From an uncultured Chloroflexota bacterium (GTDB taxonomy: Bacteria; Chloroflexota; Anaerolineae; Aggregatilineales; Phototrophicaceae), in contig CAIPFY010000075.1 in the NCBI GenBank assembly GCA_903864435.1, positions 1 through 43,607 of the forward strand: a stretch of 43,607 bases of DNA, written 5' to 3'. This document shows, piece by piece, positions 13,229 through 43,607 of the stretch. Each line of letters starts with the position of its first letter. Position 1 is the first letter of the stretch. Position numbers and translations under genes: made by a program. The notes under the pieces were generated by a model. The model saw only the letters and a list, made by a program, of their open reading frames with translations, was not told where the DNA came from and did no database searches.

Positions 13229-14680
13229 TTACTGCCCCTGTCCCAGCGAATAGCCGGGAATGCCGTCGAAGTTGCAGAGGTGTTCGGTCTTGATGAAGTC
13301 GAAACCCGCATCGGAGAGCTTGCCGAGCAGTTCCACGATCTGCCCGTGCTTGAGGGGCGCGTTGTCCTTGCTCATGTAGCGGCAGCGCCAGTGATCCACG
13401 CAGAAGGTTTCGGCAGCGCCCTTAGGCCACACTTTCTGACCGCGATTGCTAATCATCGCCAGATCAAAGCCGTCATGGTTGACCTTCAATAACTGTTCGC
13501 CTAGCACGTTCGGATTGCGGTCGGCTTCGTCCCACGCGAGGAAGATGTCCACGCCCACCGTGTCCTTCTTGGCGGGGGCACGCACGCTGACCGCCGCGCC
13601 GGGGGGGATGCTGTCGCCGTTGGCGTAGCTGACCGGCTTGAGCGTCTGCGGTTGCTGACCGAGGCGGGCGATGATCGCCTCGCCAAACTCCTTCGTCCCC
13701 ACCTTCTGCTTGCTCACGCCGTCGCGGAAGATGTCGTAGGTATGCACTCCGTCCTCGACGGTACGCAGCCATGCGTTGTGAACGCGCTCCGCCACGTCCG
13801 GTTGACCGATGTGTACCATCATCATCACGCCCGCCAGCAGCAGGCCGGACGGGTTGGCGAGGTTCTGACCGGCGCGGCGCGGGGCGCTGCCGTGAATGGC
13901 CTCGAACATGGCGGCGTGCTGCCCGATGTTCGCCGACCCCGCCAGCCCGACAGAGCCGGCAATCTGTGCTGCCACGTCCGACAGGACATCGCCGTACAGG
14001 TTGGGCAGCACAAGGACATCGAACATTTCTGGCGTGTCGGCCATCTTCGCCGCGCCGATGTCCACGATCCAGTGCTCTTTTTCCAGTTCAGGATATTCCA
14101 CGCCGATCTCGTCAAAGACCTTGTGGAACAAGCCGTCGGTCAGCTTCATGATGTTGTCTTTGGTGAAGGCCGTCACCTTCTTGCGGTTGTTGCGCCGCGC
14201 ATACTCGAAAGCGTAGCGCACGATCTTCTCGCAACCGGGGCGGGTGATGAGCTTCAAGCACTGGTAGACCTCATCCGTCTGGCGGTGTTCGATGCCCGCG
14301 TACAGGTCTTCCTCGTTCTCGCGGATAATCACGATGTCCATGATCGGATGCTTGGTTTTGATGAACGGCGAATAGCTGACGCAGGGGCGCACGTTGGCGT
14401 ATAGGCCGAGCGTCTTGCGGGTGGTGACGTTGATGCTCTTGAAGCCCGTCCCCTGCGGCGTGGTCAGCGGCGCTTTGTAGAACACCTTGGTGCGGCGTAG
14501 CGAGTCCCATGCTGCCGGTTCGATGCCGGCGGTGTTGCCCGCCATGTAAATCTTCTCGCCCACCACGATTTCTTCGATGTCGATCTGCGCCCCCGCCGCC
14601 TGCAACACCTGCAAGCTGGCCGCCATAATCTCCGGGCCGATGCCATCCCCATACGCCACTGTGATCGGTGTCTTGCTCAT
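13229..14680 (-). CDS. icd: NADP-dependent isocitrate dehydrogenase (long, C-terminally extended type)
   Basis: MSKTPITVAYGDGIGPEIMAASLQVL, RENEEDLYAGIEHRQTDEVYQCLKLITR, FTKDNIMKLTDG, NLYGDVLSDVAAQIAGSVGLAGSANIG; start chosen at 14680 with a G-rich RBS. Confidence 0.9.
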   Translation of the reverse strand: MSKTPITVAYGDGIGPEIMAASLQVLQAAGAQIDIEEIVVGEKIYMAGNTAGIEPAAWDSLRRTKVFYKAPLTTPQGTGFKSINVTTRKTLGLYANVRPCVSYSPFIKTKHPIMDIVIIRENEEDLYAGIEHRQTDEVYQCLKLITRPGCEKIVRYAFEYARRNNRKKVTAFTKDNIMKLTDGLFHKVFDEIGVEYPELEKEHWIVDIGAAKMADTPEMFDVLVLPNLYGDVLSDVAAQIAGSVGLAGSANIGQHAAMFEAIHGSAPRRAGQNLANPSGLLLAGVMMMVHIGQPDVAERVHNAWLRTVEDGVHTYDIFRDGVSKQKVGTKEFGEAIIARLGQQPQTLKPVSYANGDSIPPGAAVSVRAPAKKDTVGVDIFLAWDEADRNPNVLGEQLLKVNHDGFDLAMISNRGQKVWPKGAAETFCVDHWRCRYMSKDNAPLKHGQIVELLGKLSDAGFDFIKTEHLCNFDGIPGYSLGQGQ

Positions 14681-15133: not shown

Positions 15134-15403
15134 ATGCAGACCATGACGGTTATGGAGATTGTGGAACAGGCGAAAAAACTCACGCCGCAAGAGCGAGAGG
15201 ATTTGCTCATTCAGTTGCAGGCGCTACTCACAGATGCACCCTCATCCAGCATTCCCAAAACGGGCGCTGAAATCGTTGCATGGCTGGAGGCGGTAGAAGC
15301 GCCACTCGATTTGCTGGTGGATGAGCATATCGAAGACCCGACAGAATGGGTGAAGGCGCAGCGGCAGAAGCGGCAGCTTAAGATTTGGGGCGAGGATGGA
15401 TGA
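15134..15403 (+). CDS. VapB-like antitoxin
   Basis: Small acidic protein MEIVEQAKKLTPQEREDLLIQLQALL..., overlapping the downstream PIN-domain gene. Confidence 0.7.
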   Translation: MQTMTVMEIVEQAKKLTPQEREDLLIQLQALLTDAPSSSIPKTGAEIVAWLEAVEAPLDLLVDEHIEDPTEWVKAQRQKRQLKIWGEDG

Positions 15404-15780
15404 TGGATGCGATTGTGGATACTACCGTCATCGTTCATCTGCTGCGGCGCTATAAGCCTGCTTTGGCGTGGTTCAAGGCAGATTTAATTTGTGGCGTGAC
15501 TTCGACAACATGGATGGAAGTGATGGCTGGCGCGACCAGTAAAGCCAGTCAAGCTCATTCGAGAGAGATGCTTGTGCAGTTCGACCTGCTCTATCCCACA
15601 GCGGACGATCAACGGTGGGCGATGGCGCAGTTGGAACGTTTCCAGTTCAGCCACCACATCGGCAAGGAGGACTGCCTGATCGCTTCGGTAGCCCACCGCC
15701 TGCAAGTGCCGCTGTACACGCACAACCTCAAGAATATGCAACTCCTGCTTGGCGGCCTCGCCCTTCAGCCGTACCCTTAA
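15403..15780 (+). CDS. PIN-domain ribonuclease toxin (VapC-like)
   Basis: MDAIVDTTVIVHLLRRYKPALAWF, ...STTWMEVMAGA, ...GKEDCLIASVAHRLQVPLYTHNLKNM; acidic PIN residues in expected places. Confidence 0.85.
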   Translation: MDAIVDTTVIVHLLRRYKPALAWFKADLICGVTSTTWMEVMAGATSKASQAHSREMLVQFDLLYPTADDQRWAMAQLERFQFSHHIGKEDCLIASVAHRLQVPLYTHNLKNMQLLLGGLALQPYP

Positions 15781-15797: not shown

Positions 15798-17795
15798 CTA
15801 CGAACCGCTGACGATGAACGGATCACTAAAACGGGGATCACGAGTGAATTGCTCATCGGTCAGGCTTTCCAGAAACGCCACAAAATCCGCTTTTTGCTGA
15901 TCGGACAGGGTGAAGCCCGGAACGAAACCACTCTTAAAGGGGTTTTTTCGTCCATCGCCAGCAAATTCGCCTTCGGTGATGTTGCGTCCGCCGTCGGCAT
16001 AGAACTGGATGACGGCCTCCAGCGTGGTGATGCTGCCATCGTGCATATAGGGCGCGGTCAGGGCGACATTGCGGAGTGACGGCGGGCGGAAGCGTCCCAT
16101 ATCTTCAGGGCGGTTGGTGATCTCGTAGATGCCGCTGTTGGGCGCGGCATAAGCTCCGGTTCCGCCCACGTTATACAGGCCGGTGTTGAAGAAGGGGCGC
16201 TCATCGAGGGTGGTGCTGGCAATCACCGTTGAAAGGCTGAAGTTGAAGCCGGTGTGACAGTGGTGACACTCGAAATTTTCGGAGAGGAACATATCCATCC
16301 CGCGCCGCGCCGATTCGGATAAAGCGGCGGTATTGCCGCGCATGTACTGGTCGTAAGCCGAGTTGCCGGAGAGCAAGGTGCGGACGAAGGAGGACAGTGC
16401 CAGCGTGATATTGTTGAAGGTGAAAGGCTGCACCTGCTGTGGGAAGGCCGCCGCGAATAGGCGCTGGTAGCGTTCGTCCTGCTGCAAACGGGTGATGACC
16501 GTATTTTCGTTGCCCGTGATGCCCATCTCTACCGGATGTTCGCCAAACATGGGAATAACAATCTGGCGTTCCAGCACCAGCAGATTCGGGTTTGACCATG
16601 TGTAGGTGGCGTTATAGGCGACGTTCGTCAGTGATGGCGAATTGCGCGGCGTGGAATCGCCGGTTGATCCGCTGGAGACGGCTTTGCCATCGGTGAAGGC
16701 CAGCGCCTGAATATGGCAACCCGCGCAGGCCAGCGTGCCATTACCGGATAGGCGCTGGTCATAGAATAGGTAGCGTCCCAACTCAGCTTTTTCGGCGGTC
16801 ATCGGGTTGTTGTCCGGCACACGGGGCAGCGGGAATCCCGGCGGCAGTTGCCACTCATAGCCCCCGTCGGCGAGGGAGATCAGGCCGTTGGCGTTCACCG
16901 TCGCCCGCATCCACGCATTCGTGATCTGGAAGCCGTCGCTGCTGGCGAAATTCACGCGCCCGGTGGGTGCATCCTGCAACACGGTGAAATGGACGGTGAT
17001 GGTGCGACCGGATGCGAAATGAAACTGTACCGGTATGATTTCCCCGTTGTAGAGATCACCCGCCAGCCCATCCAGCATGATGTGTTTTCCACCCGGCGCG
17101 AACGAAACGACGGTATGGGGTGTGAAGGTGACGGTTTCTAGTGGAACCATCCTCGCCACGCCATCCGTCAGGGTGGTTTCGTGCAGTGTCATGGATTGGA
17201 TGCGGGCGCTGCTCACGCTCGTCAATTGATCGGCCTCTTTGCCGCTGTACACCATGCTGAAATAAGCGGCGCTGCTGGGGAAAACAGCAAAATTGAGACT
17301 GTGGTTGTGGGTGTGAATCAGGTTCGGGAACAACGGCGTGACCAGCAACCCGCTGCCCCAGACGAGCAACCCGCCGAGTCCTGCTGTGCTGGTTGCCCGC
17401 AGGAGCGCCGCCGCCTGTGAGCCGCGCCGCGCTTCAGTGTTCCGCGAAACGGCTGCTATCAGGCTGACGAAGGCCAGCCCTTCCGCCGCTTTGCAGATGA
17501 GCGTTGCCCAATCCACCGGCTCCGGGGCATCTGCGAACGGGGTTTGTACCCACTGCGTCAGCAGCCACAACGCCACCATTCCGCCGGACAGAATCAGCCC
17601 ACTCCACCGCAGCCAGCGGCGCTGACGCAACCCTGAGCGCAGGGCGAGCAGCGACCAGCCGACTTGCAGCACACCGGATAGGGCGAAAAAAGCGCCGTGC
17701 GCGGGTGCGTGTGAAAAGTGGTCAGGGCTGATGAATAGATGAATAAGACCAGCTAGAAAAAGACCGAGGGATGAGAGCAGAAAAAAGATAGTCAT
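15798..17795 (-). CDS. Fusion protein: N-terminal membrane domain + PCuAC-like copper chaperone domain + MbnH/MauG-like di-heme cytochrome c peroxidase
   Basis: Multi-TM N-terminus; AAYFSMVYSGKEADQLTSVSSARIQSMTLHETTLTDGVARMVPLETVTFTPHTVVSFAPGGKHIMLDGL (PCuAC pattern); CAGCH and CHHCH heme motifs in a MauG/cytochrome c peroxidase fold sequence. Confidence 0.82.
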   Translation of the reverse strand: MTIFFLLSSLGLFLAGLIHLFISPDHFSHAPAHGAFFALSGVLQVGWSLLALRSGLRQRRWLRWSGLILSGGMVALWLLTQWVQTPFADAPEPVDWATLICKAAEGLAFVSLIAAVSRNTEARRGSQAAALLRATSTAGLGGLLVWGSGLLVTPLFPNLIHTHNHSLNFAVFPSSAAYFSMVYSGKEADQLTSVSSARIQSMTLHETTLTDGVARMVPLETVTFTPHTVVSFAPGGKHIMLDGLAGDLYNGEIIPVQFHFASGRTITVHFTVLQDAPTGRVNFASSDGFQITNAWMRATVNANGLISLADGGYEWQLPPGFPLPRVPDNNPMTAEKAELGRYLFYDQRLSGNGTLACAGCHIQALAFTDGKAVSSGSTGDSTPRNSPSLTNVAYNATYTWSNPNLLVLERQIVIPMFGEHPVEMGITGNENTVITRLQQDERYQRLFAAAFPQQVQPFTFNNITLALSSFVRTLLSGNSAYDQYMRGNTAALSESARRGMDMFLSENFECHHCHTGFNFSLSTVIASTTLDERPFFNTGLYNVGGTGAYAAPNSGIYEITNRPEDMGRFRPPSLRNVALTAPYMHDGSITTLEAVIQFYADGGRNITEGEFAGDGRKNPFKSGFVPGFTLSDQQKADFVAFLESLTDEQFTRDPRFSDPFIVSGS

Positions 17796-17816
17796 AGGAT
17801 CACGAATTTTGAATAA

Positions 17817-17950
17817 GGAAGGTATCCGAGGCGGCGGCTACCTTCCCTTTTAGAACACTGCTGATTATGGAGGACACCCGAGGCGGCGGGTATCCTCCCT
17901 TATCAGTAACGATTAAATACGGAGGATACCCGAGGCGGCGGGTATCCTCC
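17817..17950. repeat. Three tandem 52-bp repeats, each containing a 30-nt hairpin
   Basis: Hairpins at 17817-17846, 17869-17898 and 17921-17950; the third is perfect (GGAGGATACCCG-AGGCGG-CGGGTATCCTCC). Confidence 0.9.
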
Positions 17951-17961
17951 CTATCAGAACA

Positions 17962-18837
17962 CTACTGCATACGGAAGAAGGACTGGGTATCGGCTACCTG
18001 AGTCACGCCTTCTACGATATTCAGCCCGAAACCGGGAAATAACGTCATGCAGTCAGGATCCATCGGCATAGACATACAACCGGGCGGTTCCGGAGTGTTC
18101 TCATTGAGGTTGACCCCTGCGACGAGTCCGGCGAGGTCAGCGACCACAAAGTTGTGGGCGGGATTGAACCCATCCAGACGGATCGTGGAGACGTTCGGAT
18201 TGCCGCAAGGTTCGGCAGGTGGGGTGTTGCCATCCGCTGCTTTACAGGCCGTGCTGCCCAGATGAATGAACCACGCAGGCAGCGCCCCTTCCGGCGTCAT
18301 CAGATCAATACGGACGAACTTATAACCGACCTGCCAATTCCACCACATCGCGGGGATATTGAGCGGTGCGGGAGCTGTCGTCGTATCCAGATGGTCGAGT
18401 TCAAACGGCACGCCGATGTCAAAGACGATCCCGGTATATTCGCCTTCAGGCACTTCACCGGAAATCTTGTTGTTCAGGGCGCTGTTGCCGGCTTCGCTGC
18501 ACCCGGCGGTGCCATCTTCAAAATCCAGCAGGGCGACATTTTCATACTGCCACAACCCGTCCTGTGTCAGCACAACAGGCACTTCTTCACCTGCGGCGCT
18601 CACCAGCCGGACGTTGGACACGAAAAAGCGGAAGTCATTCAAAACCACGCCGCTGTCACCGGTTCCCAGACCTTCGTAAGCCATTCCACAGCGGGCGGGG
18701 CGATCCCCTACCACCGCGTCAAACTGAATGGTGACAGCCGGCCCCACTTTCGCATGTTCCTCATGCGCTGTAACAAGGCTAACGCCCAGAGTCAGCAGCA
18801 AAATTACCACAATCAGGCTAAACCATTTCCCCAACAC
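17962..18837 (-). CDS. MbnP-like copper-binding periplasmic protein (metallo-mystery pair four-Cys motif family)
   Basis: Signal peptide; VTIQFDAVVGDRPARCGMAYEGLGTGDSGVVLNDFRFFVSNVRLV, MWWNWQVGYKFVRIDL, HLGSTACKAA, GCMSMPMDPDCMTLFPGFGL; adjacent to the di-heme peroxidase as in MbnP/MbnH pairs. Confidence 0.82.
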   Translation of the reverse strand: MLGKWFSLIVVILLLTLGVSLVTAHEEHAKVGPAVTIQFDAVVGDRPARCGMAYEGLGTGDSGVVLNDFRFFVSNVRLVSAAGEEVPVVLTQDGLWQYENVALLDFEDGTAGCSEAGNSALNNKISGEVPEGEYTGIVFDIGVPFELDHLDTTTAPAPLNIPAMWWNWQVGYKFVRIDLMTPEGALPAWFIHLGSTACKAADGNTPPAEPCGNPNVSTIRLDGFNPAHNFVVADLAGLVAGVNLNENTPEPPGCMSMPMDPDCMTLFPGFGLNIVEGVTQVADTQSFFRMQ

Positions 18838-18892
18838 AATCCAATCCTTTCCTTAAAATCCACGCTTGTGCGCGGCCCAACCACGTACCCGG

Positions 18893-19483
18893 CTATAAGG
18901 CCTCATCGTTCGGGTGTGTTTTGTGATGATGCGTCATCGAAAGATGTGAGGCGGTTTCCTCAAAAGACCACACTTCCCCGCCAAACCCCAGTTGGAAGGC
19001 AGAAGCGTCGTCGGCGGTGGCGAAACATAACACGCTGGGGATGCAGCACGCTTGAATGCGGCTGTTCACCACAAAATGCGCTTGCAGCACATTCACCATG
19101 CGCCCGTGAAGGAAGTCTTTCGTCAGCGCGGAATACGTGCCGGTCTGGTTGTTCAGCATGATGAGGCCGCAGTGAGCGCAGCAGGCCGTGAGAATGTTCC
19201 CCGATTGCAGATGAATGGTGAACAGGGTGCGATCCGCAACGGCTGAACCGCACATGCCACACACCGAACCGCGAGAGGGCTGCGGGTTTTCGGCACGCAG
19301 GCGCACTTTGCCGTAACTCTTTTCAACGAGACCCGTATTCACGAACGTTTCCAGATCACGGTGAACCGTCATGATCGAAACACTGAGTCGGGCTGCCAGA
19401 TCATCAATTGAAAGGACACGATGCTCTCGCAGCCAGTTCAAGATATGTTCGCGGCGTTGTTCGCTGTTTTTGAACGGTTCCAT
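18893..19483 (-). CDS. Transcriptional regulator: DeoR-type HTH fused to a NosL-like Cys-rich metal-binding domain
   Basis: N-term RREHILNWLREHRVLSIDDLAARLSVSIMTVHRDLETFVNTGLVEKSYGKVRL; C-term CGMCGSAV...CCAHCGLIM...DFLHGRMVNVLQAHFVVNSRIQACCIPSVLCFATADDASAFQLGFGGEVWSFEE, His-rich tail HHHKTH. Confidence 0.75.
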   Translation of the reverse strand: MEPFKNSEQRREHILNWLREHRVLSIDDLAARLSVSIMTVHRDLETFVNTGLVEKSYGKVRLRAENPQPSRGSVCGMCGSAVADRTLFTIHLQSGNILTACCAHCGLIMLNNQTGTYSALTKDFLHGRMVNVLQAHFVVNSRIQACCIPSVLCFATADDASAFQLGFGGEVWSFEETASHLSMTHHHKTHPNDEAL

Positions 19484-19494
19484 GTTAGAAGTTG

Positions 19495-19529
19495 TTGTTA
19501 TATTTAACAGACGATGTTAACTATAACAA
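19495..19529. promoter_or_regulatory. 35-bp palindrome, putative operator at the DeoR-NosL regulator promoter
   Basis: TTGTTATATTTAACA-GACGA-TGTTAACTATAACAA; 14 of 15 arm positions match; 12 bp upstream of the start codon. Confidence 0.6.
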
Positions 19530-19827
19530 GAAAAATCAAAAAACACAAGTTGATTTTCAAAACCCGTTTTATTCTGGGTGAAACCCTTTGATCGGCTCGT
19601 GTTGCCGGAGCAGAGCGAATTCTGCCCTATATGAACGTGGTGGGTCGTGGTTTAGCGGCAGAGTGGCTTCAAGACCAATAGATGACATTAGGCATATATT
19701 CTTGGTGATGTTCATCATACACGATGTTGATGCCTGTGTTATATCGTGATATATCATGTGATTTTTAACACAACATCACATGTGTTGCGCTTTTTCGTCC
19801 CACTATTCGCGTTTGAAAGGAAACACC

Positions 19828-21564
19828 ATGACGGTTTGTAGCCCAATACAGGAAATATATACCCGTCTGCGCTCACCCCGGTGGTTTGCCATTGTAGGTG
19901 TCGCTTTCTGGGGCATATCCCTGTTCTTTTTTGCTGGAACCGCCGCCGCCCAAGATGCCACAGCGACCCCCGAACCCGCTGTGATGCTGCCCACTGAAAA
20001 CGGTCGGTACTTTGCCACATCGGGGTTATGCGCTGCCTGCCATGCCAACATGTTTGATGAGCATGGGAATGATATTTCGTTTGACACTACATGGCGTGCT
20101 ACTATGATGGGCAATTCCGGGCGCGATCCCTACTGGCGTGCCGGGTTGCGCCGCGAAGTGTTGAGCAATCCAGATTTTTCGGCCTTTATTCAAGATAAGT
20201 GCGCGACCTGCCATATGCCGATGGCACGCACGACCGCCAATCTATCCACCGGTGACGTACTTCAAGTCTTCGGAGAGGGTGGCGCAATTCAGCCGGGGAC
20301 GGAGTATCACAACCTCGCGCTGGACAGCGTTTCTTGCACGCTTTGTCACCAGATATCGAATGTTCACCTCGGTGAACGCGAAGGTCAAAGCGGGCACTAC
20401 ACCATTGATGGTTCGACCGATGAATTCTCCCATGCCCGCGTGATTTATGGCCCCTTTGTGCCGAGTGCTTCCCAATCTGCGTTAATGCAGTCTGCGACAA
20501 ACTTTACCCAGACACAAAGCGACCATATTTCTTCCTCGGAACTGTGTGCAAGCTGCCATGAGCTTTTTACCCCCTATTTCGATGTTGAGACTCGCGCATT
20601 GGCACCGGTCACATTCCAAGAGCAAACGCCCTACACTGAATGGTTGAACAGCGATTACCGCATCAGTAGAACCTGCCAAAGTTGCCACATGCCCATCGTG
20701 GATGGCTTAGCGCCAGCCGCCAGCGTCGGCAACCCCACCCCGCTGATGCGGACGGGCGTTTCGCAGCACACGCTGTTAGGCGGCAATGTGTATCTACCGC
20801 GCATTCTTCAGCAGTTTGGCGAAGAACTGGAAGTGGCGGCGACCGATGAACAGTTCCAGCAATACATTGATCTCACGCGGCAGCAACTTCAGAACGATAC
20901 CGCCCGTGTAAGCCTGCAAAACGCACTGGTCACGGAGGGTACGCTTTCGTTTGACGTGTTCGTGCAAAGCCTTGTCGGGCATAAGTTCCCGACGGCCTAT
21001 CCGTCGCGGCGCACATGGCTGCATGTGACGGTGCGGGATGCTGCTGGAACGGTCGTGTTTGAATCGGGCAGTTACAATACCAACGGTTCGATCAATGGCA
21101 ACGACAACGATGAAGATGCACAGCGTTTTGAGCCACACTATGATGTGGTGACTGCGCCCGATCAAGTTCAGATTTATGAGCCAGTGATGGGCGACACGGC
21201 TGGTCACGTCACCACCACGCTGCTACTGGCTTCGCAGTATTTGAAAGATAACCGCCTGCTGCCGTTCGGCTATGATCGCGCTACTGCGCCAGTGGAAATT
21301 GCCATTTGGGGTGATGCTGCGGCGGACACCGATTTTATCGGCGGTAGCGATATCGTCACCTATCAGGTTCCAGTGAGCAGCGCCACCGGGCTGACCATCG
21401 AGGTTGAATTGGTCTACCAGACACTCGGCTATCGCTGGGCAGAAAACCTGCGCGAATTTGCCGATCCTGTAGCTGCGCCGGAAATTGTCAAATTCCTGTC
21501 GTACTACGAAGCTGTACCGAATATCCCAGAGTTGGTCGTTAAGGCGTCTGCGCAGATTCAGTAG
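19828..21564 (+). CDS. Pentaheme c-type cytochrome (cytochrome c554-like/multiheme)
   Basis: Hydrophobic leader; five CXXCH motifs (CAACH, CATCH, CTLCH, CASCH, CQSCH); start MTVCSPIQE preceded by GAAAGGAAACACC. Confidence 0.85.
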   Translation: MTVCSPIQEIYTRLRSPRWFAIVGVAFWGISLFFFAGTAAAQDATATPEPAVMLPTENGRYFATSGLCAACHANMFDEHGNDISFDTTWRATMMGNSGRDPYWRAGLRREVLSNPDFSAFIQDKCATCHMPMARTTANLSTGDVLQVFGEGGAIQPGTEYHNLALDSVSCTLCHQISNVHLGEREGQSGHYTIDGSTDEFSHARVIYGPFVPSASQSALMQSATNFTQTQSDHISSSELCASCHELFTPYFDVETRALAPVTFQEQTPYTEWLNSDYRISRTCQSCHMPIVDGLAPAASVGNPTPLMRTGVSQHTLLGGNVYLPRILQQFGEELEVAATDEQFQQYIDLTRQQLQNDTARVSLQNALVTEGTLSFDVFVQSLVGHKFPTAYPSRRTWLHVTVRDAAGTVVFESGSYNTNGSINGNDNDEDAQRFEPHYDVVTAPDQVQIYEPVMGDTAGHVTTTLLLASQYLKDNRLLPFGYDRATAPVEIAIWGDAAADTDFIGGSDIVTYQVPVSSATGLTIEVELVYQTLGYRWAENLREFADPVAAPEIVKFLSYYEAVPNIPELVVKASAQIQ

Positions 21565-22791: not shown

Positions 22792-25700
22792 CTAGTCGGC
22801 GATATGCGCTTCCGGGTCAAGGTCGGCTATCGGGACGGTGAACGAGAAGATGCTGCCGCCCGTCGGGTTGTCCATAATCCAGATGCGCCCGCCGTGTGCT
22901 TCTACCGTCATGCGGCAGAAGGTTAAACCGAGGCCGATGCCGCGCCGATTCCCGCGCCGCCCTTTGATCTGCACGTAGCGATCAAACAGCCGCCCTTTAT
23001 ATTCGTCCGGCACGCCGGGGCCGGTATCCGCCACGCCCACGCGCACCCATCCCGGTTCATGTTCGACGGCCTGAATCGTGACCGATCCTTCCGAGGGGCT
23101 GAATTTGAGCGCGTTATCCACCAGATTTTGCAGCACGCGCTCGATCTTGTCACTATCCACCGCCAGCGTGGGCAGGTCGGCAGCAAACTGCATACTCAAC
23201 TTCACATCGAGGTCTTGCGCCAGCGGCCCCAGATCGTTAATCACGTTGTCCGCCATCCGTTTGAGCGATGTCGGCTCGATGTCCAGCATAATCTGCCCGT
23301 TTTCCATCTTGGAAATATCCAGCAGCGAATCCACCCGCGATAGCAGTTTGCGAATCGCCCGCTGGCTGGTGTCGGTGGTGGATTCGACCAGCGAATACGC
23401 ACTGATGTCTTTGGGCACGATGTCGCGCATCAGCTTGATGCCCGTCGTGACGGCGGTTAGCGGGCTGCGCAGGTCGTGGACGATCATGCTGCCCAGATCG
23501 TCGCGCATTTGGGCGAGTTCGCGTTCTTCCGTCTGATCGTAAAAGACCAGCAGCACCCCTAGCGGGTCGCTGACCGACGCGCCCACCGGGATGATATGCC
23601 GCAGCAGGTAAGTGGTTTCGCCGTCGTTTTGCAGGCTGTAGGCGAAAGGTTGCGTTTCGCTCAAGCTGATTCCGGCACGCAGTTCTTTGACCAACCGGCT
23701 TAGGCGGTGGTCAGACTCGAACCCCATCCGTTCAGCCAACCCCAAATCGGGGCGTTCCAGCAGCGCCTCTAGCGGTTGGTTGAGGAGCGTGTTGACTTGC
23801 AGGCCGAGGAGCTTCACACGCGGGTTCGCCAGCGCGATGATGCCCTGCCGATCCACCAGTACGATGCCTTCGGTCATGGCGTTGAGGATGACCTGAAGGC
23901 GGTCACGCGCTTCGGCGATGCGCTCGAACAGGCGCGTATTGTCCATTGCGATGATGGTCTGGTTGGCCAGCTGAGTGACGAAATAGCTGTCTTCTTCGGT
24001 GTAGGCGGCAGGCACATCACTTTCCAGACCAATCGCGCCCAGAATTTGCCCGCTGCGCAGAATGGGCATAATGAGTTGCGCCCGCGCCCCGGCTAGAATC
24101 GCCTGTGCCGAAGGTTCGCCCCGCAAATCCATCACCCGCGCCGCCTGTCCGGTTTGCAGCACGCGCCCGCCCGTCGAACGCATGACATCACTGGCATCCA
24201 CAGGCATTCCTAGCGGATAGCCGCTGAGTGTTTCCACGCGGAATGCTCCGGCGGCGTCCTCGCGCAAAATGACATAACCGGCTTTGGAAACGGTGACTTC
24301 CATCGCCCGCCCCAACACCAGATTGCAGATTGAACGCAGGTTCATGGTGGCGGTCAACTGCCGCCCCAGAGTCGCCAGCGCGTACATCTGCTCCACGCGG
24401 CGCTCCAGCGCCTTGTCGGTGGTGGAATACTGACGGGCGTTTTTGATGGCCTGCGCCGCCTGTGTAGCGAAGGCGCGTAGGATTTCGACATCGTTTTCGT
24501 TGAACGTTTGCGGCGTGTTGTAGAAATATTGAATCACGCCCAGTCCGCTATCGCCCGCTTCCAGCGGCAGTTCCGCCCACGCCTGCTTACCTTCCCGCAC
24601 CAGCGCGGCGCGGTAGATGGTGACACGCTCATCGGTGGCGGCGTTCTGGACAAAGACCGGTGCGGCGCGGCGCGGTGTTTGAATCAGCGGCATGATCGGG
24701 TCGCTGTTAAAGAGTTCGCTCAATCCGGCAGTGCGCACCAGCATCAGCCCCACTTGCAGATCGTCTCGCACAAGGTAGACGGCGACGGCGGTGGCTTCGG
24801 TCACAACGGTTGCCGACGAAGCTACTGCGTCCAGCACCGCATCCGGGGCTAACGTCCCTGTCAGGAGGGAGGCGACGCGGTTCAGGGTGGCTAACTGGTT
24901 GGCGCGGGTGGCCTGCTGCTCGAAATATTGCGCGTTGGCGATGGCTGCGCCGGCGCTGGTGGCGACGATGCTCAATAGGCGCTGGTCGGCTGCTTTGAAC
25001 CCCTGCGTGGGATCGTCAGAGGCGACGGCAATCGCGCCGAGCAACCGCCCACCCGCCAGCAGCGGCACTCCTAACCACGAATACAGGTTGTCGCTAGGGG
25101 ATTCCAGCCGCAACTGACGCGCCATATTTCGCGCTTCATGCGCCAGCAGCAGCGGCGACTGCTGTTCCAGCACGCGCCCTAGCAACGTGCGTTCTGACGA
25201 CTGCTTTGGCACGTCTACCGGCTGCCCGTGCCGCATCACCAGTGGGAAGCTGAGTTCGCGCTGTACCGGATCGTAGAAGGCCACCGTGAAATGTTCGGCC
25301 TTCAAAAGCTGAGTGACCTGTTCGTGGATGGCGCGTAGTAGCGGTTGCAGTTCAAAGTCGGATTGCAGGGCGCGGCTGACCGCCGATAAGGTGCGGCTTT
25401 CCTCGATCTGGGTATGCAACTGGTAGCGCATGCGGCTGAATATGTGCAGGCCGATGGTGATGAGCGTCGCGCCGCTGGCGAACGTCCAGACCGTGCCATT
25501 GCTGATGGCGATCACCTGCGCCGAGAGGATGGCGAACGGGATGGGCAGGATGAGCAGGATGAGGATGGGGAATATGCTCCGCCGCCACAGCTTGTCCAGT
25601 GAGCGCCCATCGGCGTAAGTTTCGAGCAAGAAAATGGCGATATACACGACACAGTAGGCCACCGACATGCCGATCAGGGGGGTGCTGTGGTTGCGGATGG

Positions 25701-26145
25701 GCGCTTGCAGCGGCACTTCGCCGCCCATCGTCTGGAATACTGCCGCGCCGACAAGAAAGCTCAGGCTGAGGCGGGCGCAAATGACAATGATACTGCGGGC
25801 GGTTCGGCTGGTTAAGCGCCGCCGCAGCAGCGGGTCGCTCTTTTTGAGCATGAGCAGGATGCCGCCGAAAAAGCCGCCAAAGAACATAGACCACAGCATC
25901 ATGGGCTGCACGTTCAGCGGGTAGGCCAGCAGCGCCACCACGCCGACACTGTGCGCGACGCTAAACTCCCCTTCACTGAGCAGCGCACCGAAGTACAGCG
26001 CGGCGGCGGTGACTAGCGCATAGATGAGGGCTGGCCCGGTGTATTTGGCAAACACGCTGCCATCCGGCAAATTCAGGAACAGTGTGACGGCCATCACAAG
26101 GCCGAGCAGCCAGATAATCAGTGTGCTGACAGAGGAACGGTTCAT
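22792..26145 (-). CDS. Large sensor histidine kinase: N-terminal membrane domain, multiple GAF domains, PAS, HisKA/HATPase
   Basis: HisKA MIVHDLRSPLTAVTTGIKLM, HATPase LVDNALKFSPSEG...DTGPGVPDEYKGRLFDRYVQIKG...GIGLGLTFCRMTVEAHGG; several GAF-like segments. Confidence 0.9.
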   Translation of the reverse strand: MNRSSVSTLIIWLLGLVMAVTLFLNLPDGSVFAKYTGPALIYALVTAAALYFGALLSEGEFSVAHSVGVVALLAYPLNVQPMMLWSMFFGGFFGGILLMLKKSDPLLRRRLTSRTARSIIVICARLSLSFLVGAAVFQTMGGEVPLQAPIRNHSTPLIGMSVAYCVVYIAIFLLETYADGRSLDKLWRRSIFPILILLILPIPFAILSAQVIAISNGTVWTFASGATLITIGLHIFSRMRYQLHTQIEESRTLSAVSRALQSDFELQPLLRAIHEQVTQLLKAEHFTVAFYDPVQRELSFPLVMRHGQPVDVPKQSSERTLLGRVLEQQSPLLLAHEARNMARQLRLESPSDNLYSWLGVPLLAGGRLLGAIAVASDDPTQGFKAADQRLLSIVATSAGAAIANAQYFEQQATRANQLATLNRVASLLTGTLAPDAVLDAVASSATVVTEATAVAVYLVRDDLQVGLMLVRTAGLSELFNSDPIMPLIQTPRRAAPVFVQNAATDERVTIYRAALVREGKQAWAELPLEAGDSGLGVIQYFYNTPQTFNENDVEILRAFATQAAQAIKNARQYSTTDKALERRVEQMYALATLGRQLTATMNLRSICNLVLGRAMEVTVSKAGYVILREDAAGAFRVETLSGYPLGMPVDASDVMRSTGGRVLQTGQAARVMDLRGEPSAQAILAGARAQLIMPILRSGQILGAIGLESDVPAAYTEEDSYFVTQLANQTIIAMDNTRLFERIAEARDRLQVILNAMTEGIVLVDRQGIIALANPRVKLLGLQVNTLLNQPLEALLERPDLGLAERMGFESDHRLSRLVKELRAGISLSETQPFAYSLQNDGETTYLLRHIIPVGASVSDPLGVLLVFYDQTEERELAQMRDDLGSMIVHDLRSPLTAVTTGIKLMRDIVPKDISAYSLVESTTDTSQRAIRKLLSRVDSLLDISKMENGQIMLDIEPTSLKRMADNVINDLGPLAQDLDVKLSMQFAADLPTLAVDSDKIERVLQNLVDNALKFSPSEGSVTIQAVEHEPGWVRVGVADTGPGVPDEYKGRLFDRYVQIKGRRGNRRGIGLGLTFCRMTVEAHGGRIWIMDNPTGGSIFSFTVPIADLDPEAHIAD

Positions 26146-34111: not shown

Positions 34112-34456
34112 GGTATCTCGCTATTCAATAAAGGGATGAAAAACAACCGGTTCGCCTGCAACCCTCACCGCTTGATCTTAGCTGCTTTCAAGCCGTTCGG
34201 TAGATTCCACGACTGCGGCGGGTCAGCATTGGGCTTCAATAGCCCCCCTTTTAATTGGTATTGATTGTACAATGATTACTTGTCAGATTGCATTGCTTCC
34301 GTTTTTGCCGTTACGGTATAAAAGGTGCATTATAGTAATCATAGGAAAGGACATGAGCATTGTCATGATGAACAGGTAACAAATGAACATTCCTAACCTT
34401 GCAGTGTATCGCTACTCTATTGTCTATGGGTGGAATGTAAATTCCGGGAGATCAAA

Positions 34457-34981
34457 ATGACAGATATGACGTGGGAGAAACCCTCCCAACCGGTGGCTGC
34501 GCCGCGTAAAGGCGAACGCACCAAGTTCCTCATTGGCGGCATCCTCATCATCGCCGCCGTCCTCTACCTGATTATCTCAGGCACAACCGGTAACACGCAG
34601 TATTTCATGACCGTTGCTTCGGTACAGAATAGTGCGGATTATGTAGGCAAAACCGTGCGGTTGTCCGGCGCGGTGATCGGTGAGACGATCCAGTACGACA
34701 GCCAGAATCTTATCCTCGACTTCACCATTGCCAACATTCCGCAGGAAACCCAGAACCTCGCGCTGACTCTGCACGAGGCGGTGTCCGATCCGGGTGCTGC
34801 TCGCATGAAGGTGCATCTCGAAAATCAGGTAAAGCCTGACCTGCTCCAGCACGAAGCACAGGCCATTCTCACGGGTGCGCTGGGTGAAGACGGTGTGTTC
34901 TATGCCACCGAAATTCTGCTGAAATGCCCCAGCCGCTACGAAGAGAGTGTGCCGGATCAATCCATCAAGAGCGAAACTTAA
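34457..34981 (+). CDS. ccmE: Cytochrome c maturation protein CcmE, Cys-variant (CxxxY) heme ligand motif
   Basis: Single TM then OB-fold-like sequence FMTVASVQNSADYVGKTVRLSGAVIGETIQYDSQNLILDFTIAN; C-term ATEILLKCPSRYEE in place of KHDENY. Confidence 0.85.
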   Translation: MTDMTWEKPSQPVAAPRKGERTKFLIGGILIIAAVLYLIISGTTGNTQYFMTVASVQNSADYVGKTVRLSGAVIGETIQYDSQNLILDFTIANIPQETQNLALTLHEAVSDPGAARMKVHLENQVKPDLLQHEAQAILTGALGEDGVFYATEILLKCPSRYEESVPDQSIKSET

Positions 34982-34990
34982 GGGGACATC

Positions 34991-37096
34991 ATGCTGGCAG
35001 AAATCGGTCTGGTCGCCACGCTACTTGCCTTTTTTACATCAATCTACAGCATTGGCGCATCCATTTATGGCGAACGCATTTCGCGTAAAGAGGCGACTGT
35101 CCTCAGCGGGCGTAACGCTGCTATTTTGACATTTGTGCTGCTGCTCGTTGCCATGATGGGACTGATGGGGGCGCTGCTCAATCAGGACTATCAGGTGAAA
35201 TATGTCTGGTCGGTCAGCAGCCCGGACATGCCGCTGTTCTTCCGCATCACCGCGTTGTGGGGGTCGCAGGCCGGTTCACTGCTGTTCTGGTCGTTCCTGA
35301 TGAGCGCGTTTTCGGCGGTGGCGACCATCATCAACTGGCGCAGCCACCGCCGTTTAATGCCGTATGCCATCGCTTATATGATGGCGGTGGTCGCCTTCTT
35401 CATCGGCCTGACGCTGTTTATCGAAAACCCGTTCAGCCGCTGGTGGATTTTGCCGAACAATCCGGTGGATAGTCAGGTGGTGGACGCGGCGTTCATCCCC
35501 TCGGACTCGGTTGCGCCGGGTGCGGTAGAACTGGCGAGTAGCGCCAACGGGTTGAACCCGCTGCTGCGGCACTTTGGCATGGCGATTCATCCGCCCATGC
35601 TGTATCTGGGCTTCGTGGGCTTCGTCATCCCGTTTGCTTTTGCGATGGGTGCGCTGGCCTCCGGCGATCTTTCGACCAACTGGATTAAAGCCTCGCGCCG
35701 CTGGGCGCTGGTGGCGTGGCTGTTCCTCAGCCTCGGTTTAATCCTCGGTGGACGTTGGGCGTATGACGTACTCGGTTGGGGAGGGTACTGGGGCTGGGAC
35801 CCGGTGGAGAACGCTGCGTTCTTACCTTGGTTGATGGGTACGGCCTTCTTACATAGTGTGATGATTCAGGAAAAGCGCGGGATGCTGAAGACATGGAATA
35901 TGTTCCTCGTCATCGGCTCTTTTAGCGCCGTGATCTTCGGCACATTTGCCACCCGTAGCGGCCTCGTGGAAAGCGTTCATGCGTTTGCCCGCAGCGGCAT
36001 CGGTACGCCGATGTTCCTGTTCTGGTTCTCGCTGACCTTTATCTCGGTTGGCCTGATTCTGTGGCGGCGCAACCGGGGCGAACTGAAAGACGATCACCGC
36101 TTCACCAGCATTCTCAGCCGTGAAACGTTGTTCGTGCTGAATAACTTCATCTTCGTGGCGCTGTTCATCGCTGTGTTCTGGGGTAGCTTCGGTGCGCCGA
36201 TTCTGTCGGAACTGCTGATGAAGACCAACATCACGTTGGGCAAAGACTACTTCATGCGTGTGACCCCGCCGCTGTTCGCCGCGCTCTACATTCTGATGGG
36301 CATCGCGCCGGTGTCGGCGTGGGGCGTGTCGTCGGCGAGGCGTCTGGGTAAAGCCATGATTGTGCCGCTGGTACTCACGCTGTTGTCGCTCATTCCTTTC
36401 TACCTGACGGGCGTGCATACTGGCGGGGCGCTGGTGGCCTATGGCATTGTGCTGATGGCGGGCTGGGTGGCGATCTTTGAAACCTACCGCGCAGTGGTGG
36501 TACGGGTGCAGATGCAAAGCGAAAACCCGCTACTGGCGCTGTGGTCGCTGCTGCGGCGTAACCCGCGCCGTTACGGGGGCTACATGATCCATCTGGGGAT
36601 CACGGTCATCGGCATCGGCGTGATCGGCAGTACGTTGTTCCAGATGGAAACGCAAAAGACGCTGGCGGTGGGCGAAAGCCTGACGATTGGCGGCTACAGC
36701 CTGCGCTACGATCAACTGCTGAAGGGGCAGATTGCGGAAGATGGTCGCATGATGGACATCGCCGAAGTGACGGTGATCCGTGATGGTCAAGAACTGGCAC
36801 ATCTGCGCCCACGCCGCGATTTCTTCCCGCAGACTCAGGGTTTGAATACCATGACGATCTCCGGCGCTTATAGCACAGTCGAAAATGACTTCTATGTGCT
36901 GCTGGTGGACTGGGAACCGATCAACCAAGACGCTGCCACCTTCAAGGTATACATCAACCCGCTGATTAATCTGATCTGGTGGGGCAGTTTCATCCTCATC
37001 CTCGGCACGGTCTTTGCCATGTGGCCTAAAGAACTGCTGCCGTCTCGTGTCCGCGAATCTGCTCTGGCAGGTGCGTTGGTCGGGAAGGGTGCATAA
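34991..37096 (+). CDS. ccmF: Cytochrome c heme lyase subunit CcmF
   Basis: Multi-TM; tryptophan-rich WGGYWGWDPVENAAFLPWLMGTAFLHS, HFGMAIHPPMLYLGFVGF. Confidence 0.93.
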   Translation: MLAEIGLVATLLAFFTSIYSIGASIYGERISRKEATVLSGRNAAILTFVLLLVAMMGLMGALLNQDYQVKYVWSVSSPDMPLFFRITALWGSQAGSLLFWSFLMSAFSAVATIINWRSHRRLMPYAIAYMMAVVAFFIGLTLFIENPFSRWWILPNNPVDSQVVDAAFIPSDSVAPGAVELASSANGLNPLLRHFGMAIHPPMLYLGFVGFVIPFAFAMGALASGDLSTNWIKASRRWALVAWLFLSLGLILGGRWAYDVLGWGGYWGWDPVENAAFLPWLMGTAFLHSVMIQEKRGMLKTWNMFLVIGSFSAVIFGTFATRSGLVESVHAFARSGIGTPMFLFWFSLTFISVGLILWRRNRGELKDDHRFTSILSRETLFVLNNFIFVALFIAVFWGSFGAPILSELLMKTNITLGKDYFMRVTPPLFAALYILMGIAPVSAWGVSSARRLGKAMIVPLVLTLLSLIPFYLTGVHTGGALVAYGIVLMAGWVAIFETYRAVVVRVQMQSENPLLALWSLLRRNPRRYGGYMIHLGITVIGIGVIGSTLFQMETQKTLAVGESLTIGGYSLRYDQLLKGQIAEDGRMMDIAEVTVIRDGQELAHLRPRRDFFPQTQGLNTMTISGAYSTVENDFYVLLVDWEPINQDAATFKVYINPLINLIWWGSFILILGTVFAMWPKELLPSRVRESALAGALVGKGA

Positions 37097-37098
37097 CT

Positions 37099-37614
37099 AT
37101 GCGCGCATCCAAAGGGGTTCGCCGCTGGTTGTGGGTCGGGCTGTTGGTCGCGTTCATGGCGCTGGCCTATGTGCCGCCTGCCGTCGCGCAGGATGGCGTG
37201 CCGCGCACGGTGACTGCGGATGATGTGAACGCGATTGCCCAAAAGCTGTACTGCCCGGTGTGCGAGAACATCCCGCTGGATGTGTGCGGGACGGCGGCTT
37301 GCGCCGACTGGCGTGACGAAATTCGTCAACAGTTGGAAAGCGGCATGACCGAGCAGCAGATTGTGGATGACTTCGTGCGGCGCTTCGGCGACCGTGTGGT
37401 GGGGACACCGCAAGACCCGGCGCTGCGGGCGCTGTCATTGGTGACACCCTATATTCTCATTGGAGTCGGTTTGCTGCTGACGCTAGGCGTGATCTGGCGG
37501 CTACAGCATCGCAAGGGGAATGGCGCTGTGCCGCCGTCCCCTGATCCGGCTGATGCAGGCAGAAGCAACTCGTCCTACTACGAGCAGCTTCAGAAGGATT
37601 TGGAAGGAAAGTGA
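37099..37614 (+). CDS. ccmH: Cytochrome c maturation protein CcmH (CcmL-type)
   Basis: Signal peptide, LYCPVCENIPLDVCGTAACADWRDEIRQQLESGMTEQQIVDDFVRRFGDRV, C-terminal TM. Confidence 0.88.
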   Translation: MRASKGVRRWLWVGLLVAFMALAYVPPAVAQDGVPRTVTADDVNAIAQKLYCPVCENIPLDVCGTAACADWRDEIRQQLESGMTEQQIVDDFVRRFGDRVVGTPQDPALRALSLVTPYILIGVGLLLTLGVIWRLQHRKGNGAVPPSPDPADAGRSNSSYYEQLQKDLEGK

Positions 37615-37616
37615 CC

Positions 37617-38192
37617 ATGATGGATGAAAGCCTCCCTGTGAACGAGACTGAAGCACAGCCGACATCCAAACGCGGCGGCTTCGGCATCGGTTCGCTCATG
37701 CTTCTGGCCGGGGTGGTCGTGGCAGCCGTCGTGTTCGGGTTGGCGCTCTCACGTCAAGGCCAGACCCAACCCACCAACGGCGCTGCGCCCGATTTCGAGT
37801 TCTCTACGTTCGATGGGCAGACGATGAAATTGTCGAGCTTACTTGGCAAGGTCGTGGTCATCAACTTTTGGGCCAGCTGGTGCGGCCCCTGCCGTGACGA
37901 AGCGCCGGAACTTCAGAATGCGTGGGCGAGCTATCAGGATCGTGGTGATGTGGTGTTTCTGGGGATCGCGTATGCCGATAATGGCCCGAAATCGCTGGCC
38001 TACATTGATGAGTTCAAAATCACCTATTTGAATGCCCCTGATCTGGGGACGCGCATCAGTGAGTTGTACAACATTCAAGGTGTGCCGGAAACGTTCGTGA
38101 TTGATACGACGGGTCGGGTGGCACAGTTCATCTATGCCGGCGTCACACAAGAAAAACTTCAGACCATCATTGATCCGCTGTTGAAAGGATAA
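37617..38192 (+). CDS. Membrane-anchored thioredoxin-like protein (CcmG/ResA/TlpA)
   Basis: [24 protein letters not shown], ...[18 protein letters not shown]. Confidence 0.92.
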
Positions 38193-38198
38193 TCAACG

Positions 38199-38645
38199 AT
38201 GAGCATAGCAGGATTAATCCTCGCGGTGGTGATGGGGTTGGCGACACTGGCCGTTCTGATGCTGCCGTATCTACGGTATCGGTCTACGCCGATCAACAAT
38301 GCGTTGATGCGCTCCGGTCAAACCCGCGATGCGCTGCTGACGACTTATGAGCGCGTCCTGTCCGCTATACGCGATCTGGATGATGATTTCCAGACTGGCA
38401 AACTGGCGCAGGAGACTTATCAGGCCGAACGTGCGATATGGGCAGAGCGCGGCGTGCAGGTCTTGCAAAAGATAGAAGCCGCAGACGCGACTCCCGCACC
38501 CAAGAATAATGCCAAGCGCCGCGATACGACCCCGGCTGGAGGGTTTGCCCCGCCTGCCGTCGCCGCCGATGCCGCGCTGGATGAAGCTGTAGAAGAAGCC
38601 ATTGCCAAGTATCGCAAAGCCAAAAGCAGTACCGCAGGAGATTAG
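38199..38645 (+). CDS. Small membrane protein with CcmI/SHOCT-like coiled segment
   Basis: N-terminal TM; YERVLSAIRDLDDDFQTGKLAQETYQAERAIWAERG; operon position after the ccmG-like gene. Confidence 0.5.
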   Translation: MSIAGLILAVVMGLATLAVLMLPYLRYRSTPINNALMRSGQTRDALLTTYERVLSAIRDLDDDFQTGKLAQETYQAERAIWAERGVQVLQKIEAADATPAPKNNAKRRDTTPAGGFAPPAVAADAALDEAVEEAIAKYRKAKSSTAGD

Positions 38646-41514: not shown

Positions 41515-43401
41515 ATGAGCGCCCTGCAATCTGCTGCCCCCACTGCTACACCCATCTTCACCGGGCTGCGAAAGAAGCTCATCATCGCGTTTCTGGCGGT
41601 GCTGCTCATTCCGGTGGTCGAAATTGGTTTCTACGGCTATTTTTTCACCAGTCGAGTGCTTTCACAACAGGCGTTGGACGGCGCTGAACGCGAAGTGCAG
41701 TTGCAGGCGCAGCATATTGTGCGTTCGCTGGCACAGGCGCAGGGCGACGCGCTGTTTCTGTCCCAACTTCGCAGCCTCGCCAAATTGCGCGAGCTGATGG
41801 CGCAACATGCGCCGTCTGCCGAAATTGACTTGTGGCGCGAAGAAGCCGCGCAGGATTTTATGGTGCTGCTCTCGGTGCGCCCGATGGTGCAGAACCTGCG
41901 CTATATTGACAGCGGCGGGCGTGAAGTGGTGCGGGCAGATTCGGATGGACAGACGGTGCATTCGTCTCCCCGCAAAGAACTGCGCGACCGTTCCGAATTC
42001 GCCTATTTTCAACAGGCGATGGCGCTCACTCCGGGCAGCGTATTTGTGTCCCCGTTTGCCATAGATCAAGATATGGACGAGAACAGCCCGCTGGTGCATT
42101 ACGCACTGCGCACCAGCGATGGCAACGGCGTGATCGTGGTGGATTTGCACGCGGCATGGATTTTGCGCAATCTGCCTGCGAACGTCACGCAGGATACGTG
42201 GGCGCTGATTGATCAGGACGGTAACTATCTGGTCTATCCAGAGAATTACGCGCCCGCTTCCAACGATGCGGGCAAGGCGCACATTCACAGCGCCATGAAC
42301 AACCTGCTTTCCGGCGGGGCTGGCACTTTTGAAACCGATACCAGCGTGTTTGTCTATAACACCGTGTTCCCGGCGGCGAATAGTCAGTCGCAGTTCTGGG
42401 TGCTGTACCGCGATACGCCCCGCGCCGTGTTGTATGCCGATGTGTCGGATTTTTACCAGAAGGCCGCGCTGTTTGTGATGGCTGCGGTGCTGTTGGCGGT
42501 GGGGCTGGCGATTTTCACCAGTCAGGGGATTGTGTCGCCCATCCTCGATTTGCGGCGGAAGGCCGAACATTTGGGGCATGGCGGCGAGGTGGATGAGATG
42601 CCCCTCGAACTGCCGACGGATGAAATCGGTTCGCTCACGCGCACGTTTTACGAGATGGCGCACGATCTGGAACGCAAGCGCCGCGAAGCCCAGATGTTGA
42701 TTGAACGCTTGATTACCGCGCAGGAAGAAGAACGCAAACTGGTGGCCTATGATTTGCACGACGGCCTGATTCAGCACATGGTGGGGGCACGCTTCCATCT
42801 GAGCAATTGCCGCCAGTTATGCCCGATCCGCGACAACGAACACGCTACCGCCGGATTGGTTCGTGGTTGCGATGCGCTGACGAATGCGATTGTAGAAGGA
42901 CGGCGCATCATTGAGGGCTTGCGTCCGGCGGCGCTGGATGATCTGGGGTTGGGCGCGGCGCTGACCGAGCTGGCACACTCTACCGCAGAACACAGCGATT
43001 GGCAGCTTTCGCTGGATGTGCATCCACTTTCGCAAGAACCTGAAAAAAGTGTGGGCGTAACGCTGTACCGGATCGCACAGGAAGCCTTGAACAACGCCCG
43101 CAAACATGCACAGGCCAAGCATGTTCAGCTTTCGCTGACCAACGGCTATGGCATCAGCCTGAGCATTCAAGATGATGGACGCGGCTTCGAGCCGGAAATT
43201 GTCTCCCGTGAGGAGCGCGGGTTGGGGATTACCACCATGCGCGAACGTGCTGCGCTGCTGCATGGCACTTGCGAATTGGTGTCTACCCCCGGAGTCGGCA
43301 CGACGATTCAGGTGTGGATTCCCTGGCAGGTGGAGGCCGCGAATACCATCCATTTGACCGACATTCCCGGAGGTGAAACGGAATGGTCAACGCCCCCTTA
43401 G
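41515..43401 (+). CDS. Sensor histidine kinase, NarL/NarX-type (Cache-like sensor, HAMP, HisKA_3, HATPase)
   Basis: HAMP QGIVSPILDLRRKAEHLGHGGEVDEMPLELPTDEIGSLTRTFYEMAHDLE; LVAYDLHDGLIQHMVGARFHL; HATPase QDDGRGFEPEIVSREERGLGITTMRERAALLHG. Confidence 0.9.
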   Translation: MSALQSAAPTATPIFTGLRKKLIIAFLAVLLIPVVEIGFYGYFFTSRVLSQQALDGAEREVQLQAQHIVRSLAQAQGDALFLSQLRSLAKLRELMAQHAPSAEIDLWREEAAQDFMVLLSVRPMVQNLRYIDSGGREVVRADSDGQTVHSSPRKELRDRSEFAYFQQAMALTPGSVFVSPFAIDQDMDENSPLVHYALRTSDGNGVIVVDLHAAWILRNLPANVTQDTWALIDQDGNYLVYPENYAPASNDAGKAHIHSAMNNLLSGGAGTFETDTSVFVYNTVFPAANSQSQFWVLYRDTPRAVLYADVSDFYQKAALFVMAAVLLAVGLAIFTSQGIVSPILDLRRKAEHLGHGGEVDEMPLELPTDEIGSLTRTFYEMAHDLERKRREAQMLIERLITAQEEERKLVAYDLHDGLIQHMVGARFHLSNCRQLCPIRDNEHATAGLVRGCDALTNAIVEGRRIIEGLRPAALDDLGLGAALTELAHSTAEHSDWQLSLDVHPLSQEPEKSVGVTLYRIAQEALNNARKHAQAKHVQLSLTNGYGISLSIQDDGRGFEPEIVSREERGLGITTMRERAALLHGTCELVSTPGVGTTIQVWIPWQVEAANTIHLTDIPGGETEWSTPP

Positions 43402-43607
43402 CTAAAGCTAGGGACTTGTAGGAATACAAGCTAGGTTGACCCGACTCAGCCACCAGCCGAAAGGCTGATGGGGCTACGTTAGTAGTAGCAGTTCAAGACC
43501 TATCTACGGGTGCTTCACCATCTCGTAGCACTAGAACCTACGCATTAAACAGATTGAAGGTCTAAATCAGTGTGCGGTTGGGATAGTACGGGCTACTCAC
43601 ATTGTCA
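43392..43607 (-). mobile_element. Right-end/omegaRNA-like region of an IS200/IS605-type (TnpB-associated) element, truncated by the window edge
   Basis: Minus strand ends CATCAGCCTTTCGGCTGGTG...CAAGTCCCTAGCTTTAGCTAAGGGGGCGTTGAC, the stem-loop architecture typical of IS605-family right ends; no coding capacity in the visible part. Confidence 0.5.

Follow-up and report, generated by a model that had tools for sequence, protein, structure and literature searches.

Introduction

The described copper systems closest to the locus analyzed here, a predicted three-gene operon on a 43,607-nucleotide stretch from an uncultured Chloroflexota bacterium (contig CAIPFY010000075.1; the window hereafter), are the ycnKJI operon of Bacillus subtilis and the operons that encode MbnP and MbnH. 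The ycnKJI operon encodes the repressor YcnK, YcnJ (CopC-CopD-YtkA) and YcnI (DUF1775). YcnK represses in dependence on copper, and expression of the operon rises in copper starvation and falls under copper-replete conditions (PMC12154828; PMC13344008; PMC8424229). The locus in the window resembles ycnKJI in having the regulator gene first, in the combination of a DeoR helix-turn-helix (HTH) with a NosL-like domain in that regulator, and in the copper genes downstream, but mbnP and a fusion of a five-helix transmembrane (TM) module, PCuAC and MbnH here replace ycnJ and ycnI. MbnP/MbnH pairs occur far outside methanobactin producers (PMC3621798). Compared with pairs from methanobactin operons and from operons of other kinds (PDB 7l6g and 6e1c), the window proteins likewise pass the curated cut-offs and share the WxW, His and Cys positions and the two hemes, but they are accompanied by a YcnK-type regulator and MbnH is fused to TM and PCuAC parts. 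Manesis et al. reportedly dealt, in 2021, with MbnP copper binding that depends on kynurenine formation. In the analogous MopE/SACCP and CorA/CorB systems of Methylococcus and Methylomicrobium, a copper protein with kynurenine in its site also has a MauG-like di-heme partner and is copper-repressed (PMC3621798; PMC3912023), although that protein belongs to another sequence family and is surface-associated or secreted. PCuAC chaperones such as PccA share the ligand motif found here, but they are free periplasmic proteins, whereas PCuAC is here tethered inside the MbnH enzyme.

The role and regulation of MbnP/MbnH outside methanobactin producers are poorly known, and an operon of this kind that begins with a gene for a YcnK-type regulator is predicted to be derepressed under copper limitation. 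We know of no earlier account in which MbnP/MbnH are combined with a YcnK-type regulator, and the literature searched, which left most subscription papers outside, yielded no description of a YcnK-led mbnPH operon or of a TM-PCuAC-MbnH fusion. The families are known; what is new is their combination in this operon and this fusion.

Organization of the Locus

Regulator, mbnP and mbnH follow each other in the direction of transcription on the minus strand, separated by 55 and 166 bases, and a gene for a five-CXXCH cytochrome lies divergent from the regulator (Table 1). This is the layout given by an earlier reading of the letters alone (the sequence-only reading), and the open reading frames (ORFs) were found as it had stated. 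Its family names, MbnP, MbnH, PCuAC and NosL-like, likewise stood, all exceeding curated profile cut-offs, with the amendment that no separate gene encodes PCuAC, which forms one domain of the mbnH product. With four matches to curated models within 3.7 kb, chance is excluded as their source. Read from the sequence, the anatomy is that of a regulator gene in first position, mbnP, an mbnH fusion with the full PCuAC motif, and a candidate operator upstream. We consider it probable that this is an autoregulated copper-limitation operon, in which the YcnK-type repressor controls mbnP and the mbnH fusion; the direction of regulation, the modification of MbnP and the hand-over of copper are what we infer from it.

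Table 1. Features of the copper locus and the divergent cytochrome gene (positions in the window).
Feature	Position	Strand	Basis or remark
mbnH fusion gene: five-TM module, PCuAC domain and MbnH di-heme domain	15798..17795	-	profiles, PDB match
MbnH di-heme domain, aa 326-660	15816..16820	-	predicted hemes at C357-H361 (CAGCH) and C510-H514 (CHHCH)
PCuAC domain, aa 174-268	16992..17276	-	PF04314 E 9e-22, motif
N-terminal membrane module, aa 1-160, about five TM helices	17316..17795	-	hydrophobicity, low-confidence model
mbnP-mbnH intergenic region: three tandem stem-loops, GGAGGATACCCG-loop-CGGGTATCCTCC	17796..17961	-	fold z -7.1
mbnP: N-terminal hydrophobic export segment and MbnP domain	17962..18837	-	profiles, PDB match, alignment
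YcnK-family regulator: DeoR-type winged HTH and NosL-like Cys-rich sensor domain	18893..19483	-	profiles, alignment, fold, synteny
Operator candidate: TTGTTATATTTAACA-GACGA-TGTTAACTATAACAA, 15+15 bp inverted repeat	19496..19530	.	upstream of regulator
Weaker operator-like inverted half-site pair	19737..19770	.	before the pentaheme gene; two half-sites, shuffle fraction 0.08, not significant alone
Pentaheme c-type cytochrome	19780..21564	+	divergent from regulator; five CXXCH; system membership not established

The Regulator and Its Relatives

Both parts of the regulator exceed their profile cut-offs (HTH_DeoR, PF08220, 46.7 bits against 21; NosL, PF05573, 27.3 bits against 24). With its AlphaFold2 (AF2) model (predicted local distance difference test, pLDDT, 91.5), Foldseek gave a match to NosL (7og7, E 5.8e-7) and a weaker one to MerB. 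In the fold of its sensor domain the protein thus resembles NosL (7og7, 7osf) and, less closely, MerB, but it is fused to an HTH, is not exported and has a Cys-rich site of its own; lacking a hydrophobic segment and carrying an N-terminal HTH instead, it does not have the makeup of an exported NosL lipoprotein. A search of 249 genomes of the same class gave 28 further full-length relatives, 25 of which were aligned with the window protein; seven Cys (C75, C78, C101, C102, C105, C146, C147) and H104 are invariant in the 26 sequences. In Brevibacillus, Rummeliibacillus and Peribacillus (L137, L147, L166), genes for CopC-CopD(-YtkA) and then DUF1775 proteins lie directly downstream of regulator relatives, which is the ycnK-ycnJ-ycnI order of B. 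subtilis. Because of the invariant Cys/His set, the NosL fold and these Bacillota homologs heading a ycnK-ycnJ-ycnI order, the regulator is assigned by sequence to the YcnK family, a placement made through the Bacillota relatives and not by direct comparison with B. subtilis YcnK. The known biology of YcnK points to acquisition under copper limitation. The idea that the DeoR-NosL arrangement defines a new family was dropped, as the literature on TRASH/NosL pointed to YcnK.

The neighborhoods of the relatives are consistent with a copper function. PCuAC is encoded within 3 kb of the regulator in 22 of the 28 other class loci and SCO near it in nine, and 24 of the 28 have at least one copper gene, compared with none of 48 control loci, which were drawn from cytochrome and di-heme peroxidase loci and are in many cases shorter than the regulator loci. 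In a genome of the same family (L041), the regulator is followed by one gene of unknown family and then by a single CopC-CopD-YtkA-PCuAC protein. Operons headed by CruR homologs have previously been noted to contain MbnPH-like, PCuAC, ScoC, YcnI and CopC genes (PMC9426467). Across relatives, conserved neighborhoods connect copper genes with PCuAC, with MbnP/MbnH and with the regulator, but not with the pentaheme cytochrome. The copper acquisition or sensing system proposed in the sequence-only reading is upheld by profiles and neighborhoods, without the redox chain that it had added as a possibility.

Two observations on these neighborhoods may be recorded separately. Proteins of about 180 aa without a Pfam match, 62% identical to each other, precede CopC-CopD-YtkA-PCuAC at L252:3763-4293 and L041:8548-9135, and a relative also lies downstream of the regulator in L112. 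At L121:7590-9353, a protein of 587 aa that contains four PCuAC domains in tandem is encoded directly after a YcnK-type regulator, which a MauG-like gene precedes.

The Operator Candidate

On the sense strand, the inverted repeat upstream of the regulator contains the direct half-sites TGTTATA-N12-TGTTAAA, 19 bp apart (19503-19528). No other direct half-site pair at a spacing of 9-11 or 18-21 bp occurs in the 43.6 kb of the window, and the 344-bp region between regulator and cytochrome holds five half-sites. Shuffles of this region contain 0.85, and about two in 2000 of them reach five. We compared upstream regions, deduplicated by protein and in part still near-identical, of 53 mostly Chloroflexota relatives and of 28 relatives mostly from elsewhere. 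TGTTATA is present in 23 of the 53 (1.6 in shuffles, at most 6) and in 11 of the 28 (2.3 in shuffles, at most 7). As a direct repeat, the half-site TGTKANA recurs at 10 bp spacing in 12 loci and at 20 bp in 10, with nearly none in shuffles. These conserved direct repeats suggest what the operators of YcnK-family regulators outside Bacillus may look like.

MbnP and the MbnH Fusion Protein

MbnP scores 286 bits with TIGR04052 (cut-off 140) and 133.5 bits with PF20243 (cut-off 27), and matches PDB 7l6g with an E-value of 3.2e-41. Across nine Chloroflexota MbnPs, W165, W166, W168, H149, H192 and six Cys are invariant. Both MbnP and MbnH exceed their cut-offs in the same 8 of the 249 class genomes, a co-occurrence of 8/8. 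Elsewhere in Chloroflexota, CopC is fused to MbnP at L069:5753-6973, together with CopD and SCO, with similar fusions in L072 and L073, and the pair has as neighbors CopD and CopC (L067), CopC-CopD-YtkA (L210) or ZnuA-type metal ABC genes (L211, L213). By eye, no methanobactin gene was recognized among the ORFs adjoining the locus; the genome was not searched for MbnB.

The mbnH product reaches 510 bits with TIGR04039 (cut-off 363) and 77 bits with PF04314 (cut-off 29), and its match to PDB 6e1c has an E-value of 6e-123. The PCuAC ligands are complete and exactly spaced, H205-x10-M216-x21-H238-x-M240, in agreement with the motif H-x10-M-x21-H-x-M given for PCuAC (PMC7558416). The AF2 model of the fusion is poor, with a pLDDT of 51.6, and served only as a hint to the N-terminal helices. 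In L067, L210, L212 and L213 (tblastn), the five-TM module is fused straight to MbnH; because such fusions without PCuAC exist elsewhere in Chloroflexota, PCuAC appears to be a later insertion between module and enzyme. No PCuAC-MbnH fusion was evident among 25 listed matches in plasmid records, the best MbnH entries of which match essentially the MbnH domain only. The PCuAC fusion suggests a route by which the predicted kynurenine site would receive copper.

The genome contains no further copy of the stem-loop unit probed from the mbnP-mbnH intergenic region. These hairpins were rejected as terminators since no T-run follows them, and processing or stability elements are therefore more likely; they are possibly an mRNA processing element.

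Related Loci in the Genus and Family

A second genome of the genus (G628) repeats the order regulator-mbnP-mbnH and has upstream TGTGATA repeats spaced by 10 bp. In a third (G632), the triple fusion is complete, shows 58% identity and retains the strict PCuAC motif. In G641, of the same family, PCuAC-MbnH has lost the copper motif and lies beside CopC-CopD-YtkA-PCuAC, and MbnH is without PCuAC in G627, G628 and G635.

Several of these comparisons weigh against a YcnK-controlled operon in which the fused chaperone matters. Linkage of the regulator to mbnPH was seen in only two genomes, both of one genus; the genes divergent to the locus in G632 and G641 instead encode a response regulator of the LuxR type and a kinase-like protein, and the other MbnPH genomes in the class sample have no YcnK-type regulator. 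The half-site spacing in the window is 19, not the 10 or 20 of the relatives. A search of the genome itself over a wider spacing range gave three further pairs, which lie at unrelated genes and roughly equal the control in number, so that the TGTKANA motif alone defines no regulon. Finally, as judged from the motif loss in G641, not every fusion requires chaperone activity.

At L251:4263-5794 and L252:2084-3615, where no YcnK-type regulator is found, the genes divergent from mbnP are one for a LuxR-type response regulator and a kinase-like one; this pair is possibly a second kind of copper regulator.

Proposed Mechanism and Alternatives

In the proposed autoregulated operon, the Cys-rich NosL-like domain would bind Cu(I) when cytosolic copper is sufficient, and the HTH of the loaded regulator would act at the TGTKANA repeats to repress the operon, in the way that ycnKJI is repressed by YcnK. 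Derepression would follow when copper is short. MbnP would then be exported, the membrane-tethered MbnH would oxidize one Trp of the WWNW motif of MbnP to kynurenine, and kynurenine and two His would complete the copper site. The tethered PCuAC, placed beside the modifying enzyme, may deliver Cu(I) to the new site or take it from there, and copper would move on to respiratory copper enzymes or importers. The stricter version, a membrane machine of one polypeptide in which MbnH makes the kynurenine site and the fused PCuAC loads it with Cu(I) under a cytosolic YcnK-type sensor, is advanced only tentatively, as somewhat less likely than not.

It is unlikely that the operon serves mainly the metallation of cytochrome oxidase, with PCuAC doing the work and MbnP/MbnH buffering or loading copper for CuA/CuB and not for uptake. 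Many regulator relatives in the class adjoin the oxidase assembly genes PCuAC, SCO and sometimes SURF1, and in Bacillus YcnJ supports Qox/Cta (PMC13344008), but no oxidase or SCO gene adjoins the locus, and MbnP/MbnH relatives are found with import-type CopC/CopD genes. This explanation overlaps with uptake, because acquired copper ends in oxidases.

An equally doubtful explanation holds the fusion to be neutral, with PCuAC and MbnH acting independently. The lost motif in G641 and the three genomes with MbnH free of PCuAC fit this, but both the window protein and its G632 counterpart, 58% identical overall, retain the strict motif, so that selection probably acts on it in two species or more.

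Still less probable is that the pentaheme cytochrome is a functional part of the copper system, giving electrons to MbnH or draining them from it and co-regulated through the shared intergenic region, as in the redox chain of the sequence-only reading. Its divergent placement and the excess of half-sites in the intergenic region, two of which lie near the cytochrome gene, speak for this, but the cytochrome-side half-sites alone are not significant, none of its relatives in the class loci inspected stands beside a YcnK-type regulator or MbnP/MbnH, and the related operons L251-L255 have no such cytochrome. The link consists of a shared intergenic region and weak half-sites, and the redox chain is not supported. 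The cytochrome matches no family over cut-off and has a weak likeness to ExtKL; relatives occur in 23 other genomes of the class, and relatives of 40-51% identity lie in class loci without MbnPH or the regulator nearby. Its start is more likely the ATG at 19828, with GAAAGGAA just upstream.

An operon for copper excess or detoxification, induced by high copper, is very improbable: CopC and CopD names are also found in resistance loci and a Cys-rich sensor could derepress upon metal binding, but no result here favors it directly, ycnKJI under YcnK rises in copper starvation (PMC12154828; PMC13344008; PMC8424229), mopE/corA are copper-repressed (PMC3621798; PMC3912023), and neither an efflux ATPase nor CsoR was recognized beside the locus.

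Other Features of the Window

Contamination of the contig is unlikely because the kinase at 22792-26145 has relatives of 52-58% identity in the same genus. At 15134-15780, two small overlapping genes on the opposite strand end just behind mbnH; the second encodes a PIN-domain protein (PF01850 over cut-off), and the two are probably a toxin-antitoxin pair. A tRNA-Thr called by ARAGORN at 14453-14540, opposite an isocitrate-dehydrogenase-like ORF and with no Rfam match, is probably a false call. About 13 kb from the heme proteins, at 34430-38645, ORFs resemble by eye the cytochrome c maturation genes ccmE, ccmF, ccmH and ccmG/ccmI. A HEARO RNA (RF02033, 92 bits) occupies positions 43386-43606 at the contig end.

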